The notes under the pieces were generated by a model that had not been told where the DNA came from, did no database searches, and saw only the letters and a list, made by a program, of their open reading frames with translations. From assembly GCF_001647285.1 (NCBI RefSeq), contig NZ_LRML01000002.1:124001-188000 (forward strand): 64,000 bases of DNA, in the 5' to 3' direction. This DNA is from Rufibacter roseus. GTDB taxonomy: Bacteria; Bacteroidota; Bacteroidia; Cytophagales; Hymenobacteraceae. Shown in pieces: positions 4,637 to 32,865 of the stretch. Numbering within the stretch: the stretch's first letter is position 1; each line of letters starts with the position of its first letter. A program made the translations under genes and the position numbers.

Positions 4637-5273
4637 CAAACTGAATAGACGCGTAAGATTCTGGCAATACCTCCAACACTTCGTTTGGTGTCATCCAGCG
4701 CACCTCTTCTATAAACTCCTCCGCTTGGGGTTTCATAAAAGTGTCATCAAGGCACTGCATGGTGTACCAACTCGTCTTTTTCAGAATTTTGTTGCCTTTG
4801 TAGGCATATGAGTGCCAGGTATTAGGCAATTCACCGGTAATGGCTACCTTGATATTGCATTCCTCCTCTACCTCGCGAAGTGCACCCAAACTGGTTTCTT
4901 CAGACTTTTTGATTTTGCCTTTAGGCAGATCCCACATTCCCAAGCGGTATATCATCAGAATCTTACCCTCTTTCAAGACCAAGCCACCGGCTGCCTTAAT
5001 GATTTTGAACTGATCTTTCAGGTGCTCCATCAGCTTGGCTTTCTTATCGGCCACCAAAGTCAGGGAGTCTAACTTTTTGAGTTTTTTTACCTCCATCAGG
5101 CGCACCAAACGGTCAATCATAGCTGAGTTGGCACTGCGTATAAGCACGTTGCCCACTAAGTCTTTAGAGGTAAACTGGTCGTCTTTATCTAACACCAAAT
5201 CATATTTGTGCTTAAAGATCTTATCACTGTTCTTTTTAATAATCAGTGGGATGTCGTTGATAAAGACATTCAT
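4590..5273 (-). CDS. NUDIX hydrolase with N-terminal extension
   Basis: Predicted to hydrolyse a nucleoside diphosphate linked to another moiety; the substrate is unknown. The NUDIX fold covers about residues 90-220. The box begins GKIKKSEET and ends REVEEECNI, matching GX5EX7REUXEEXGU except that the final Gly is Asn; the catalytic REUXEE core is intact. Residues 1-85 are an extension with no motif I recognise. The gene is convergent with coaD and shares 47 bp with it. It is divergent from pyrE with 114 bp between the starts. Confidence 0.88.
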   Translation of the reverse strand: MNVFINDIPLIIKKNSDKIFKHKYDLVLDKDDQFTSKDLVGNVLIRSANSAMIDRLVRLMEVKKLKKLDSLTLVADKKAKLMEHLKDQFKIIKAAGGLVLKEGKILMIYRLGMWDLPKGKIKKSEETSLGALREVEEECNIKVAITGELPNTWHSYAYKGNKILKKTSWYTMQCLDDTFMKPQAEEFIEEVRWMTPNEVLEVLPESYASIQFVIREYLREARKAETE

Positions 5274-6181: not shown

Positions 6182-6189
6182 AAAAAAAA

Positions 6190-6687
6190 ATGAAAATAGG
6201 CCTTCTCTCAGACACTCACTCCTATCTTGATGACCGCATTCTGGCGCACCTGCAGGGCTGCGATGAGATTTGGCATGCGGGGGATTTCGGAACGGCGGCG
6301 GTGTCTGAGCGGCTGGCGGAGTTGGCGCCGGTGCGTGGAGTCTATGGAAATATTGATGCGGCTGATGTTCGGCACCTTCACCCCAAGAACCTGCGGTTTA
6401 CTTGTGAGGGCTTAGATGTACTCATGACACACATTGGCGGCTATCCGGGAAAATATGCTCCTGACGTTCGGGCGCTCATCAAAGAAAATCCACCAAAACT
6501 TTTTATCTGCGGCCACTCCCATATTCTGAAGGTGATGACAGATGCCAAGCACGGAAACTTACTGCACCTAAACCCAGGCGCGGCCGGTAAACATGGCTTT
6601 CATAAGATCCGGACTATGATGCGGTTTGAGATCAACGAAGGCAAAATTCAGAACCTGCAGGCCATTGAGCTAGGCAAAAGGGCATAA
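6190..6687 (+). CDS. YfcE/MJ0936-type metallophosphoesterase
   Basis: A small (165-residue) calcineurin-like phosphodiesterase, probably dimetal-dependent. Metal ligands are visible as D8/H10 (SDTH), D32 (GD), N54 (GNID), H81, and H109/H111 (GHSH). The closing LNPGAAGKHG is typical of the YfcE subfamily. The substrate is unknown. The start lies directly after the right arm of the 31-bp inverted repeat and an A-run; an intrinsic terminator follows. Confidence 0.9.
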   Translation: MKIGLLSDTHSYLDDRILAHLQGCDEIWHAGDFGTAAVSERLAELAPVRGVYGNIDAADVRHLHPKNLRFTCEGLDVLMTHIGGYPGKYAPDVRALIKENPPKLFICGHSHILKVMTDAKHGNLLHLNPGAAGKHGFHKIRTMMRFEINEGKIQNLQAIELGKRA

Positions 6688-16503: not shown

Positions 16504-17604
16504 ATGAGCATCCGATTCTGGACCAAAAAAGACGCCAAGCCAAAGCAAAAGAAAGGCTTCATGCGTGAATGGGGAGACGCCATTCTTTTTGCCGTGGTAG
16601 CAGCCACGCTCATCAGATGGGCAACTTTTGAGGCGTATACTATTCCCACTCCTTCCATGGAGAAATCATTGCTGGTGGGTGATTACCTTTTTGTGAGTAA
16701 GCTGCATTACGGGGCACGTACCCCCATTACACCACTGCAGGTTCCGCTTACGCACCAAACAATTTGGGGCACCAACATCCCTTCCTATTCTGATGCCATT
16801 CAGCTGAACTCCTACCGCCTTCCTGGTTTTTCTTCCGTGAAAAACAATGACGTGGTGGTATTCAATGTTCCGTTTGAAGACCAGCACCCCGCTGACCTGA
16901 AAACAAACTACATTAAACGCTGCATAGGCATTGCCGGAGACACCATCCGGATGATAGACATGCAGGTGTACATTGATGGGAAAGAGTTACCTGACCCAGA
17001 GAAGGTGCAGTATTCCTATACCCTCTTTGCCCAAACGCCTATAAACCCTAAGTTTTTCAAAGAGCACGACATCACTGATGTTCAGGATTATCATGGTGGT
17101 GCTTTATTTGTGATAAACACTACCCCAGAAACGGCTGAAAAACTTTCAGGCTATGATTTTCTGAAAGAAGTAAGAATAAACAAAGACAGCATAGGCGTGG
17201 CCGACCCCAAGGTTTTTCCTTTCAAGCCCTCTATGTATCCGTTTAATAAAGACAACTTTGGCCCCTTTGTCATACCAGCCGAAGGTATGACGGTACCCAT
17301 TAATGCCCAGACTATTCCTTTTTACAGCATGGCTATTGAGAAATACGAAGGCCTAGAAAACGTAGTCGTGACGGATTCAACAATTACCATTGACGGCAAG
17401 CAGATCACGGAGTATACCTTCACCCAAAACTATTACTGGATGATGGGCGACAACCGCCACGACTCCCTTGACTCCCGATTTTGGGGCTTTGTTCCAGAAA
17501 ACCATATTGTGGGTAAAGCAGTGTTGATCTGGATGTCAGCTGACCCTACCGAAGGTTTACTAGATAAAATCCGCTGGAGCCGTATTTTCAGAGGAATTAA
17601 CTAA
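16504..17604 (+). CDS. lepB: Signal peptidase I (LepB)
   Basis: Inner-membrane serine protease that removes signal peptides from exported proteins. One transmembrane segment lies at about 25-42. S51 in IPTPSMEKSL is the nucleophile and K138 in NYIKRCIGIAGD the general base. Box E is YYWMMGDNRHDSLDSRFWG. The 366-residue length includes a large central insertion (about 165-280), as in other Bacteroidota. A terminator follows. Confidence 0.95.
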   Translation: MSIRFWTKKDAKPKQKKGFMREWGDAILFAVVAATLIRWATFEAYTIPTPSMEKSLLVGDYLFVSKLHYGARTPITPLQVPLTHQTIWGTNIPSYSDAIQLNSYRLPGFSSVKNNDVVVFNVPFEDQHPADLKTNYIKRCIGIAGDTIRMIDMQVYIDGKELPDPEKVQYSYTLFAQTPINPKFFKEHDITDVQDYHGGALFVINTTPETAEKLSGYDFLKEVRINKDSIGVADPKVFPFKPSMYPFNKDNFGPFVIPAEGMTVPINAQTIPFYSMAIEKYEGLENVVVTDSTITIDGKQITEYTFTQNYYWMMGDNRHDSLDSRFWGFVPENHIVGKAVLIWMSADPTEGLLDKIRWSRIFRGIN

Positions 17605-17732: not shown

Positions 17733-19559
17733 ATGAAAATTGCTTTACAATCTTTTACCCTACTGTTGTGTCTTTTGTCGTTTAAACTTCAGGCACAAGC
17801 TCCTACTCCCCAGGCATGGATTAGGGTGAATCAGTTAGGCTATTTACCCCATTCCGTGAAAGCTGCTGTTTGGGCGGGTAAAAAGAACGAAAAGATAAAG
17901 CACTTCACCCTACATGACGCTACAACTAACAAAGTTGTGTACAAAGGAAAGAGACCGCAGGATTATGGAGCATATGCTGCCTTTACCCAAACTTATCGCT
18001 TAGAGTTTAGCAGCTTTCAAAAGCCGGGTACCTACTATCTTCAGGCGGGCGGCACAAAATCTCCAGTCTTCAAGATTGAAGCCGAGGTGTATGATGGAAC
18101 AGCTGATTTTGTGCTTCACTACATGCGGCAGCAACGGTGCGGGTTTAATCCGTTCCTGAAAGACTCCTGCCATACCAAAGATGGATTTATGGTGTTTCAC
18201 CCCAATCCTTCGCTTGACTCTACCTATGTAAATGTGAAGGGTGGCTGGCACGATGCCTCTGATTACCTGCAGTATGTCACTACCTCGGCAAATGCCACGT
18301 TTCAATTGCTCTTTGCCTATGCTCAAAATCCGCAGGCTTTTAAAGACAACTACTTAGCTAATGGTTTGGAAGGCACAAATGGTATACCCGATATTCTAGA
18401 CGAGGCAAAATGGGGGCTTGATTGGCTTCTGAAAATGTACCCGGAGGCTGACCTGATGTTCAACCAAATAGCCGATGACCGTGACCATGCGGGTTACCGC
18501 CTCCCGAACCATGATAAAGTAGACTACGGCAAAGGGCCTGGTCAGGAACGACCAGTGTACGTGATTACCGGTAAACCTCAAGGTTCTTTCCAACACAAAA
18601 ACCGCTCTACCGGAGCAGCCTCTACGGCAGGCAAGTTTTCCTCTGCCTTTAGTTTAGGGGCTCAGCTGCTGAAACAATACTATCCGGCTTATGCCCAAGG
18701 ACTACGAACAAAGGCTCAACAGGCGTATGCCTACGGCGCGGCTAGACCTGGAGTGGCCCAAACGGCACCAGGCAAAGCCCCCTACTTTTATGAAGAAGAC
18801 AACTGGGTAGATGACATGGAGCTGGCTGCCGTGCAGCTGCATCAGTTAACTGGTGAAACAACCTATTTGCAGAAAGCAGCAGAATACGGCAGGCAAGAAC
18901 CCCTTACTCCTTGGTTAGGTAAAGATACAGCCCGCCATTACCAGTGGTACCCTTTTATTAATCTCGGTCATTATTATTTAGGAGCTTCTAAAGATGAATC
19001 TATTAAGCAAGAATTCATTAGCAACTTGAAAAATGGGTTAGAAGCTGTGTACAGCCGTGGGAATGGAAACGCCTTTTTGATGGGGGTTCCGTTTATTTGG
19101 TGTTCTAACAATTTGGTGGCTGGTCTGGCCACACAAGCAATACTTTACAGGCAACTCACAGGTGACACCCGCTACGCCCAAATGGAAGCTTCATTGCGGG
19201 ACTGGCTGTTTGGGGTGAATCCGTGGGGAACTAGCATGATCATAGGCCTGCCCTTCAGTAACGGTGATTACCCTGATAACCCGCATTCTTCTTTAGCATT
19301 ATTGCACGGTTACAAATTGAGCGGAGGCTTAGTAGACGGACCTGTGTACAACAGCATTTTCGGCAACTTAAAAGGATTAAAGCTAGACGCTGAAGACGAA
19401 TTTGCCCCTTTTCAGTCTGATTTGGTCGTTTACCACGATGACCACGGTGATTATTCCACCAATGAACCTACCATGGACGGTACCGCCAGTTTAAGCTTTT
19501 TGCTTTCTGCGCTTCAGATGGAGGGTAGCTCCACTTCTTCCGCTGTAAAAAAAAAGTAG
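17733..19559 (+). CDS. Glycoside hydrolase family 9 (endoglucanase-type)
   Basis: Exported beta-1,4-glucanase-type enzyme. A signal peptide covers about 1-22 (...LQAQAP). An N-terminal Ig-like CelD_N domain follows (about 28-115, opening WIRVNQLGYLPHS). The GH9 (alpha/alpha)6 barrel spans about 120-600. The acid/base region GGWHDASDY and the C-terminal YSTNEPTMDG, which carries the catalytic Glu, are both present. The frame ends ...SSAVKKK* inside an A9 run (19547-19555) followed at once by TAG. A -1 shift there joins it to the deacetylase frame for a predicted 841-residue protein. It may be a programmed frameshift, a mutation, or a one-base homopolymer error. Confidence 0.9.
   Translation: MKIALQSFTLLLCLLSFKLQAQAPTPQAWIRVNQLGYLPHSVKAAVWAGKKNEKIKHFTLHDATTNKVVYKGKRPQDYGAYAAFTQTYRLEFSSFQKPGTYYLQAGGTKSPVFKIEAEVYDGTADFVLHYMRQQRCGFNPFLKDSCHTKDGFMVFHPNPSLDSTYVNVKGGWHDASDYLQYVTTSANATFQLLFAYAQNPQAFKDNYLANGLEGTNGIPDILDEAKWGLDWLLKMYPEADLMFNQIADDRDHAGYRLPNHDKVDYGKGPGQERPVYVITGKPQGSFQHKNRSTGAASTAGKFSSAFSLGAQLLKQYYPAYAQGLRTKAQQAYAYGAARPGVAQTAPGKAPYFYEEDNWVDDMELAAVQLHQLTGETTYLQKAAEYGRQEPLTPWLGKDTARHYQWYPFINLGHYYLGASKDESIKQEFISNLKNGLEAVYSRGNGNAFLMGVPFIWCSNNLVAGLATQAILYRQLTGDTRYAQMEASLRDWLFGVNPWGTSMIIGLPFSNGDYPDNPHSSLALLHGYKLSGGLVDGPVYNSIFGNLKGLKLDAEDEFAPFQSDLVVYHDDHGDYSTNEPTMDGTASLSFLLSALQMEGSSTSSAVKKK
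19547..19559 (+). promoter_or_regulatory. A9 slippery sequence and stop at GH9/deacetylase junction
   Basis: In the GH9 frame the codons are GTA AAA AAA AAG TAG. The last seven bases before the stop read A AAA AAG, the heptamer used for -1 frameshifting in E. coli dnaX. After a -1 slip the frame continues GTA GAT ACT TTT into the deacetylase. I see no clear stimulatory pseudoknot. Confidence 0.5.
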
Positions 19560-19606
19560 ATACTTTTCAGGGAGCCATCATTAGAGGCAACACGTCACAG
19601 AAAGAA

Positions 19607-20257
19607 GTGGCGCTGATTTTTACTGGCCATGAGTTTGCCGATGGCTACGCCACCATTAGGAAGGTATTGCGAGAACACCAGGCAAAAGCATCCTTTTTCC
19701 TGACTGGAGACTTTTACCGAAACCCGGCTTTCAAAAAAGTAATTAAAGGGCTGAAGAAAGACGGGCATTATTTAGGCGCACATTCTGATAAACATCTGCT
19801 ATACGCAGATTGGGGCAATCGGGACTCATTGCTGGTTTCTAAAGGGCAGTTTGTAGTAGACCTTTACGCCAACTATGCTGAGATGGCTCGGTTTGGCATA
19901 ACCCAGCAAGATGCCCCATTTTTCTTGCCGCCTTATGAATGGTATAACTCTACCATTGCTGACTGGACAGAAGAATTGGGTTTTACTCTCATAAATTACT
20001 CGCCAGGCACCCTCTCCCACGCCGACTACACTTATCCTAGCCTTGGTAAACAATACCGCAGTAGCAATGAAATTTTAGAATCAATTTTAAATAGAGAAAA
20101 GAAAGATGCCAAGGGGCTCAACGGTTATCTGCTCCTCTTGCACCTGGGTACCGACCCCGCCCGCACTGACAAATTGTATCACCACTTATACACGCTAATG
20201 CGGGAGTTAGAATCTAGAGGGTATCGTTTTGTCTCTATTGCCGAAGCCTTGGATTAG
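19607..20257 (+). CDS. Polysaccharide deacetylase (NodB) domain, probably fused to GH9 by frameshift
   Basis: The frame from GTG 19607 gives 216 residues, but the domain really begins upstream. Read from 19556 it adds VDTFQGAIIRGNTSQKE, a natural lead-in with no start codon, so the part before 19607 makes sense only as a continuation of GH9. NodB features are LIFTGHEFADG (motif 1 region, modified from the usual TFDDG), FFLTGDF and HSDKH (the HxxxH metal site). The C-terminal LLLLHLGTDP and the final GYRFVSIAEAL are typical of the domain. It has no signal peptide of its own. It would deacetylate a polysaccharide outside the cytoplasm if made as the fusion. Confidence 0.75.
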   Translation: MALIFTGHEFADGYATIRKVLREHQAKASFFLTGDFYRNPAFKKVIKGLKKDGHYLGAHSDKHLLYADWGNRDSLLVSKGQFVVDLYANYAEMARFGITQQDAPFFLPPYEWYNSTIADWTEELGFTLINYSPGTLSHADYTYPSLGKQYRSSNEILESILNREKKDAKGLNGYLLLLHLGTDPARTDKLYHHLYTLMRELESRGYRFVSIAEALD

Positions 20258-20388: not shown

Positions 20389-21111
20389 ATGGCAATTCCT
20401 TTGTATGAAAAATCATCGATCAAAGAAATTGAGGAACGCTTTGATCAGGATGTAGAGAGATTTGCAAACCTGGAGACTGGACAGCTTTCTACCATTGACG
20501 CCCCACTTTGTTTAGAGCTGATCACAGAGGCCGCCCTCTATTCCACTCCACAGGCTCACCGTTTGCTGGACGTGGGCTGCGGCGCGGGAAACTTTACTTT
20601 GAAGATGCTCTCTAAAATACCAGATTTAGATTGCACGCTGCTCGATTTAAGCCAGCCAATGTTGGACAAAGCCAAAGAAAGGGTGCTGCCTAAAACCGCA
20701 GGAAAAGTAGGGACGCTGCGGGGAGATATCAGAGAGATCATATTTCCGGAGCACCAATATGACATTATTCTGGCTGGCGCTGTGCTACATCACCTTAGAG
20801 ACGAAGAAGACTGGGAGTTTGTGTTTCAGAAGCTTTACAACGCCCTGCGCGAAGGCGGATCGCTTTGGATTTCTGATTTAGTGGTGCATGATTCGCCGGA
20901 GATAAACAAGATGTTCTGGCAACGATATGCAGACTATTTAACCAGTGTAGGCGGACCAGAGTACACTGATCTTGTGCTGGCTTATATTGAGAAAGAAGAC
21001 TCGCCGCGGTCGGTGAGCTTTCAGCTGGAACTACTGCAGAAAGTTGGTTTCCGGCAAACGGAGCTATTACATAAAAATGGCTGTTTTGCCGCTTTCGGGG
21101 CTGTGAAATAA
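20389..21111 (+). CDS. Class I SAM-dependent methyltransferase
   Basis: A 240-residue Rossmann-fold methyltransferase. Motif I is LLDVGCGAGNFT (about 63-74), the acidic residue after beta-2 is in TLLDLS, and motif IV is around DIILAGAVLHHL. The substrate cannot be told from sequence. It is a single gene, convergent with ung across a strong palindrome. Confidence 0.87.
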   Translation: MAIPLYEKSSIKEIEERFDQDVERFANLETGQLSTIDAPLCLELITEAALYSTPQAHRLLDVGCGAGNFTLKMLSKIPDLDCTLLDLSQPMLDKAKERVLPKTAGKVGTLRGDIREIIFPEHQYDIILAGAVLHHLRDEEDWEFVFQKLYNALREGGSLWISDLVVHDSPEINKMFWQRYADYLTSVGGPEYTDLVLAYIEKEDSPRSVSFQLELLQKVGFRQTELLHKNGCFAAFGAVK

Positions 21112-32827: not shown

Positions 32828-32865
32828 CGTTTCTGACCTGTTTAAAAAAAAACAGACCAGAAACG
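32828..32865. repeat. TGTTTT-type palindrome variant
   Basis: CGTTTCTGACCTGTTT and AAACAGACCAGAAACG arms with two mismatches around an A-run. It lies between the small exported protein and the HNH gene. Confidence 0.6.

Follow-up and report, generated by a model that had tools for sequence, protein, structure and literature searches.

The stretch of DNA analysed here, referred to as the window, comprises 64,000 nucleotides (nt) of a Rufibacter roseus contig (NZ_LRML01000002.1, positions 124,001 to 188,000). It contains a gene for a GH9 glycoside hydrolase whose reading frame overlaps, at a run of nine A's, a -1 frame specifying a polysaccharide deacetylase domain of the CE4/NodB fold. To the reading that this one gene would yield two products, GH9 alone and a GH9-deacetylase fusion, we assign a probability of about 0.9; the frame would be changed by ribosomal slippage in relatives with runs of six or seven A's (A6-A7), and mainly by slippage of RNA polymerase in the window. 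The frame change itself is real and conserved and very probably programmed, and it is situated in a chromosomal gene for a carbohydrate enzyme.

Anatomy of the frame overlap

The anatomy of the overlap and its conservation were seen directly in the sequences, and the folds of the domains were established by profile and model. The GH9 frame ends with GTA AAA AAA AAG TAG. Slipping by -1 would make GTA at 19556 the next codon, with 233 sense codons up to the stop ending at 20257, giving a joined product of 608 + 233 = 841 residues. A preliminary description of the window had pointed out this junction, proposing a -1 shift of the dnaX type that leads to enzymes of 608 and 841 residues, and every coordinate checked was right (Table 1). 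The GH9 product matches PF00759 over the whole domain (profile positions 1-444 of 444, E-value 9.7e-72, 243 bits), carries a CelD_N Ig-like domain (PF02927), is matched by endoglucanase 3x17 over residues 28-590 and begins with an apparent signal peptide, MKIALQSFTLLLCLLSFKLQAQA, called by eye; elsewhere signal peptides were called on inspection or with a crude rule (Met plus hydrophobic stretch).

The exact junction sequence is present as a single copy in the window genome, in which 5.1 Mb contain 71 nine-A positions if overlapping ones are counted. Other runs of at least nine A's are located in the window only at 6182-6190 and 32844-32852, outside open reading frames of at least 150 amino acids (aa) except for contact with the start of one at 6190.

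Table 1. Features of the GH9-deacetylase locus and its surroundings in the window
Feature	Position	Strand	Basis or occurrence
Signal peptidase I gene (lepB), upstream context	16504..17604	+	beside the locus in 8/8 Rufibacter deacetylase loci and in G009
Gene for the GH9 glycoside hydrolase, 608 codons/aa in the zero frame	17733..19559	+	PF00759, PF02927
GGAGGG, Shine-Dalgarno-like, outside stimulatory distance	19520..19525	+	end of GGAGG to heptamer 25 nt
Run of nine A's, slippage-prone tract	19547..19555	+	six frameshifted Rufibacter loci, five with A9 and one with A6
In-phase slippery heptamer A_AAA_AAG (X_XXY_YYZ type) at the frame overlap	19550..19556	+	sequence
Zero-frame stop TAG, directly 3' of the heptamer	19557..19559	+	same placement in 35/39 loci
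CE4/NodB-fold polysaccharide deacetylase domain, -1 continuation, 233 aa	19556..20257	+	PF01522, AlphaFold2 model
GTG, first ATG/GTG/TTG of the -1 frame after the run and the only one before the FTG motif	19607..19609	+	frame scan
Class I methyltransferase gene, downstream context	20389..21111	+	3/8 Rufibacter deacetylase loci (window, L032, L035) and G009

Conservation of the slip site

In total, 174 sequences were classified, the window and 173 further loci. Short or duplicate copies, a 16S stretch (L162) and a weak 32% match (L030) had been dropped before the count (L001-L030, L058-L061, L064, L138-L140, L142-L145, L148, L152, L153, L158, and L162), and from a scan of named genome contigs 80 of the 99 relatives found were kept. 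With E-values up to 1e-40, matches were obtained in 50 of 390 genomes of the order sample, 19 of 395 of the class sample and 41 of 395 of the phylum sample, these samples overlapping. Among 204 Hymenobacteraceae genomes, 29 had a match: eight from Rufibacter, 20 from a genus designated g5, and the weak match L030. Genus g5 is perhaps Pontibacter.

A deacetylase frame in -1 overlap with GH9 was detected in 40 of the 174 sequences. One of them, L170, was rejected as an ordinary TGA/ATG gene pair with a leader of its own on the deacetylase, leaving 39 distinct loci; the two +1 overlaps, L169 and L198, were also read as ordinary pairs in which the deacetylase has a leader, all three being judged by eye. 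Continuous fusions in a single frame amounted to 81, 36 of which are open to the locus edge. The other deacetylase loci had no GH9 upstream (49, a class that takes in Chitinophaga proteins fused to another domain), a GH9 further upstream (two), or the +1 overlap (two). Seven of the 173 rows were identical to others, so that the number of continuous fusions may include repeats; no two of the 39 frameshifted rows are alike.

All 39 frameshifted loci contain an in-phase slippery heptamer, A_AAA_AAG in 37 cases and A_AAA_AAA in two (L194, L209). In 35 of them the heptamer is immediately followed by the zero-frame stop, and in the other four this stop comes within 12 codons. The shift is -1 throughout (39/39), site and direction being conserved among orthologs, and the runs consist of six (28 loci), seven (one), nine (seven) or ten A's (three). 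Near the junction of continuous fusions, an in-phase A_AAA_AAG was present in only two out of 81. Six of the 39 loci belong to Rufibacter and 20 to genus g5, where every locus reads A6-G-TAR with the -1 relation; both genera are members of family f1. Families f5 and f61 contribute two and five, f11, f97 and f102 one each, and the last three come from Daejeonella sp. JGW-45, a Chitinophagaceae metagenome-assembled genome (MAG) and a Dysgonomonadaceae MAG. Since the three named families may coincide with the six coded ones, the safe count is at least six families.

This conservation goes beyond chance and strongly supports the proposed programmed access to the -1 frame, with enzymes of 608 and 841 residues in the window. 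Alignment of relatives had been suggested as a way to distinguish a conserved slip site from a continuous fusion, and both were found: the -1 slip site is conserved in 39 loci, with A9-A10 or A6-A7, and continuous fusions exist as well, in other families. The latter occur in Bacteroidota and Ignavibacteria. Because the same two domains are specified in one frame at 81 loci, the joined protein can be taken as real.

In a quick tree of 173 deacetylase domains, arbitrarily rooted and weakly supported at many branches, nine switches between the states "frameshift" and "other" were required. Some distant arrangements were also noted. In six Chitinophaga loci (L080, L099, L109, L112, L115, L126) the deacetylase is in frame behind a protein of about 420 residues other than GH9. 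At L119, from the complete genome of Chitinophaga sp. E66, the frame of this other fusion seems broken near 5001, just before the deacetylase, at a place lacking an A run. L197 (G860) is a distant A10-TAG case with one TGA counted inside the match and may be a decaying copy.

The deacetylase domain in the -1 frame

The -1 continuation matches PF01522 (E-value 8.2e-12, 45.6 bits). Its AlphaFold2 model adopts the CE4 fold with a mean predicted local distance difference test score (pLDDT) of 96.3, and the best Foldseek match is PdaA 1w17 (E-value 3.9e-14). A signal peptide of its own was not found in the -1 frame of the window.

The first possible start of this frame, GTG at 19607, is preceded by 17 codons which look protein-coding, as had been stated in the preliminary description. 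They include the stretch GAIIRG, of which G6 and R10 reach a conservation of at least 90% across 52 sequences; the alignment to PdaA, a protein of known structure, begins at residue 7; and the model, confident here with a block pLDDT of 95-97, places two strands in these codons, residues 2-4 and 7-10, that would be dropped by a start at GTG 19607. An open reading frame caller starts the deacetylase half at exactly this codon and thereby produces a leaderless protein short of two strands of the fold, which is a warning to annotators. Among the Rufibacter loci, the first 20 codons after the slip showed 0.357, 0.207 and 0.590 differences at the three codon positions, mostly at the third, and the following 200 codons 0.222, 0.153 and 0.532; genus g5 gave a similar picture. 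As judged from these differences, coding constraint is kept in the downstream -1 frame.

Motif 2 of CE4 enzymes is H(S/T)xxH, and motif 1 is usually TFDD. H76 and H80 of the deacetylase are invariant in 52 sequences, fitting motif 2. The TFDD of motif 1 was not found in the window (residues 22-26, positions 19619-19633) or in most relatives seen, which have FTG(H/D)E instead. The active site may be divergent or altered, and since motif 1 departs from the textbook CE4 site, catalysis by the deacetylase should not be assumed.

Shine-Dalgarno-like sequences and downstream folds

Shine-Dalgarno-like sequences were scored as the duplex energy with the anti-Shine-Dalgarno sequence of 16S rRNA at a spacing of 5-14 nt; a match to the 16S 3' end including this sequence is contained in the window genome. 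Energies of -9.3 or stronger were obtained upstream of all 29 A6-A7 sites, and a strong sequence was present at one of the ten A9-A10 sites. The same GH9 genes, sampled at random positions, passed a threshold of -9.0 in 1.3% of cases (n=7800), and among continuous fusions three out of 80 had a strong stretch at the matched place. The spacing is usually 10 nt, although AGGAGGT of the Rufibacter locus L031 is only 5 nt away. In genus g5, GGAGGG and AAAAAAGTA are invariant in 20 out of 20 loci, and the Gly codon at the site is GGG in 19 of the 20, compared to 19% of the Gly codons in those genes. For the window the duplex energy at a spacing of 5-14 nt was 0, revealing no stimulator of this type, which speaks against a ribosomal route.

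Downstream folds were predicted from single sequences and scored relative to control windows at three fixed offsets (3, 5, and 7). At these offsets 10, 9, and 4 of the 29 A6-A7 sites were among the strongest 5% of folds, and one of the ten long-run sites at each. The window was unremarkable, at the 0.695 quantile of the control windows for each offset. Taking the best of three offsets against single-window controls, a procedure favouring the site, yielded 11/29 and 1/10. By the fixed-offset scores, therefore, the A6-A7 group shows signs of a fold and the window has none. A consensus downstream structure was not apparent, the hairpins differing between species in an inspection by eye and in 20 aligned g5 sequences. 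Hairpins of the type GCCTC...GAGGC directly after the heptamer, resembling a third dnaX-like element, were seen in L183, L186, and L065; in L183 the zero-frame stop lies 12 codons past the heptamer.

Of the dnaX-type arrangement proposed for the window, the heptamer and the adjoining stop were thus confirmed; the Shine-Dalgarno sequence and, in some loci, the fold of the fuller signal belong to the A6-A7 relatives and not to the window.

Proposed mechanism and alternatives

In the mechanism we propose, most transcripts or ribosomes would stop at TAG, resulting in a complete secreted GH9 glycoside hydrolase, and a fraction would change to the -1 frame within the run of A's to give the GH9-deacetylase fusion, which would use the GH9 signal peptide. 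In the A6-A7 relatives the move is most likely tandem slippage of the ribosome on A_AAA_AAG, stimulated by the upstream Shine-Dalgarno-like sequence; in the window it is most likely RNA polymerase that mainly slips, adding an A, with a contribution of ribosomal slippage. That the fusion is produced, its proportion, the machine used and a use for both forms are inferred from sequence.

Stimulatory Shine-Dalgarno sequences are situated 9-14 nt from a -1 site (PMC5009743), and nine A's slip strongly in transcription, at about 50% in Thermus dnaX (PMC5009743). With A9, the window and four other Rufibacter loci have the run of about nine or more A's or T's by which transcriptional slippage of the Thermus dnaX type is recognized; L031 has A6. 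Since the window combines A9 with the lack of a stimulator and of a downstream fold, the fusion is more likely to arise by slippage of RNA polymerase, and we regard this as the probable main route there. Alternatively, the shift in the window could be mainly ribosomal, two lysine tRNAs slipping by -1 on A_AAA_AAG and polymerase slippage being unneeded. The in-phase heptamer and the adjoining stop are indeed the same as in the A6 relatives, the sister locus L031 has A6 plus a Shine-Dalgarno sequence, and the direction is uniform in 39 of 39 loci; orthologs employing ribosomal shifting conserve their direction (PMC3711429). However, the window has neither a Shine-Dalgarno sequence at 5-14 nt nor an unusual downstream fold, even the best heptamers yield only about 0.3% in E. 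coli if not stimulated (PMC4066793), and the strong transcriptional slipping of nine-A runs offers another route. A mainly ribosomal shift in the window is accordingly a possibility of lower rank, though a serious one.

The position of L031 is of interest in this respect. In a tree of the 39 loci, it is the sister of the window within a group that otherwise has A9 (support 95/88). Being nested, with A6 and a Shine-Dalgarno sequence, among A9 Rufibacter species, it suggests that the mechanism changed and the output was kept. There is perhaps an even chance that the two-product output stayed constant while ribosome and polymerase were exchanged as recoding machines, the ribosome (A6 with a Shine-Dalgarno sequence) serving most lineages and the polymerase (A9-A10, stimulator lost) the others, with a switch inside Rufibacter.

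Several observations weigh against the mechanism as a whole or parts of it. L167, a long-run locus with A9, does carry a Shine-Dalgarno sequence, and in nine of 80 continuous fusions the linker contains, at some point, a strong Shine-Dalgarno-like stretch. The run class changes four times in the tree, so the tie between run length and Shine-Dalgarno sequence rests on four changes; a Fisher test gives p = 4.7e-8 without allowing for relatedness, and because only two well-supported independent pairs are available, the association is not significant after correction for kinship (sign test). In 11 of the 39 loci, the window included, some in-frame start precedes the FTG motif. Half of the Rufibacter genomes (8/16) are without a deacetylase match, and the deacetylase is therefore dispensable in the genus. 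Finally, as both classic ribosomal stimulators are missing in the window, efficiency could be very low there unless polymerase slips.

A different kind of switch would be phase variation, in which the length of the A9 run changes in the DNA and cells alternate between the fusion and a lone GH9. Replication probably makes runs of this kind hypermutable (PMC1088944), but all ten long-run loci are in the -1 register, the runs ahead of the deacetylase in the 81 in-frame fusions stay below nine (the longest is eight, found once), and 29 of the 39 sites have only A6-A7, which makes phase variation improbable. Translational coupling, by which the deacetylase would restart after the GH9 stop and act as a separate protein, appears still less probable. 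A Shine-Dalgarno-like sequence close ahead of the stop in A6-A7 loci and GTG 19607 in the window could serve it, but 28 of the 39 loci have no ATG, GTG or TTG ahead of the FTG motif, a start at GTG 19607 would come at the cost of the two strands, and the product would lack a signal peptide, Met plus a hydrophobic stretch being found by the crude rule in 0 of 39 frameshifted loci versus 38 of 53 in the stand-alone class. The rival offered in the preliminary description, a one-base sequencing error or recent inactivating mutation in the homopolymer, hardly deserves credence even for the window and is refuted for the set as a whole: errors of this kind usually fall in homopolymers, and a one-base change would join the two frames, as they are joined in the 81 continuous fusions, but the 39 distinct loci represent at least six families, all share the direction and have an in-phase heptamer, some come from assemblies that consist of a single contig (G006) or of two (G014), and coding constraint persists downstream.

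Comparison with known systems

The gene shares the heptamer A_AAA_AAG with E. coli dnaX, and its A6-A7 relatives add a Shine-Dalgarno sequence, usually at 10 nt, and in some cases a strong downstream fold. In E. coli dnaX the frameshift makes the shorter product; here the shift would extend a secreted enzyme by an entire catalytic domain, and the window is devoid of the stimulators. With Thermus thermophilus dnaX the window has in common nine A's in the sense strand and the lack of a ribosomal stimulator, but here an added A would lead to the longer product and the unslipped message to the shorter one. In two-open-reading-frame dnaX genes of Chlorobium relatives, an A run, of 7-10 A's depending on the species, also joins two frames of a chromosomal gene (PMC3711429); the gene is another one, and polymerase slippage was suggested there, arguably for the shorter runs too (PMC3711429). 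An archaeal alpha-L-fucosidase is likewise a glycoside hydrolase whose full product requires a -1 shift (PMC8037382), but that shift yields the functional enzyme (PMC8037382), whereas the zero-frame GH9 is complete and the shift would add a second domain. The continuous GH9-NodB fusions have the same domains in the same order and are homologous throughout; unlike the frameshifted genes, they specify the fusion only.

The locus in Rufibacter

A deacetylase match is present in eight of 16 Rufibacter genomes, and in six of these GH9 and deacetylase are in the -1 relation, with A9 in five and A6 in one (L031). The lepB neighbour (Table 1) was not found in the compared loci outside the Rufibacter deacetylase loci and G009. 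GH9 homologs of the frameshifted Hymenobacteraceae loci and of the Rufibacter genomes G003, G009, and G011 are 57-78% identical. Among these nine Rufibacter genomes with GH9, the slip site goes together with a following deacetylase: six have both, and the GH9 genes of the other three have neither.

In G009 the gene order is lepB-GH9-methyltransferase, as in the window minus the deacetylase. No deacetylase match was obtained in the genome search or over the locus, and runs of A at the GH9 end do not exceed four. Behind the GH9 stop, in the stretch lacking the deacetylase (L223), a run of seven A's is followed by G, possibly by chance or as a remnant. In G003 and G011 a deacetylase with its own apparent signal peptide (by eye) is located behind dapB-lepB, at the position of GH9-deacetylase, and a GH9 gene, 60% identical and without an in-phase heptamer, is on another contig. 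Separate complete genes in relatives had been named as evidence that would count against the proposed frameshift. A deacetylase with its own leader was thus found, but no GH9 gene is present at that locus, and since the deacetylase of the window has no leader, the separate deacetylase does not contradict the reading of one gene with two products.

Significance

In a limited literature search, the event proved to be of a known kind, and no earlier report for this gene family was found. Cellulase, deacetylase and glycosyl hydrolase are not named in the main text of PMC3711429, which has one "hydrolase" in another type of cluster; an unnamed cluster could be the GH9-deacetylase family. Nor are they named in the excerpt of PMC5009743. 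The number of known cases of conserved recoding in ordinary chromosomal genes was called small (PMC5009743). Such recoding outside mobile elements being rare, the genes described here add a recoded family that is kept across several bacterial families and concerns a secreted carbohydrate-active enzyme, in which recoding would set the share of molecules bearing the second catalytic module. They also constitute a natural series, partly inside one genus, from A6 with a Shine-Dalgarno sequence and A9 without one to continuous fusion and separated genes, with which one can ask how polymerase and ribosomal slippage replace each other.

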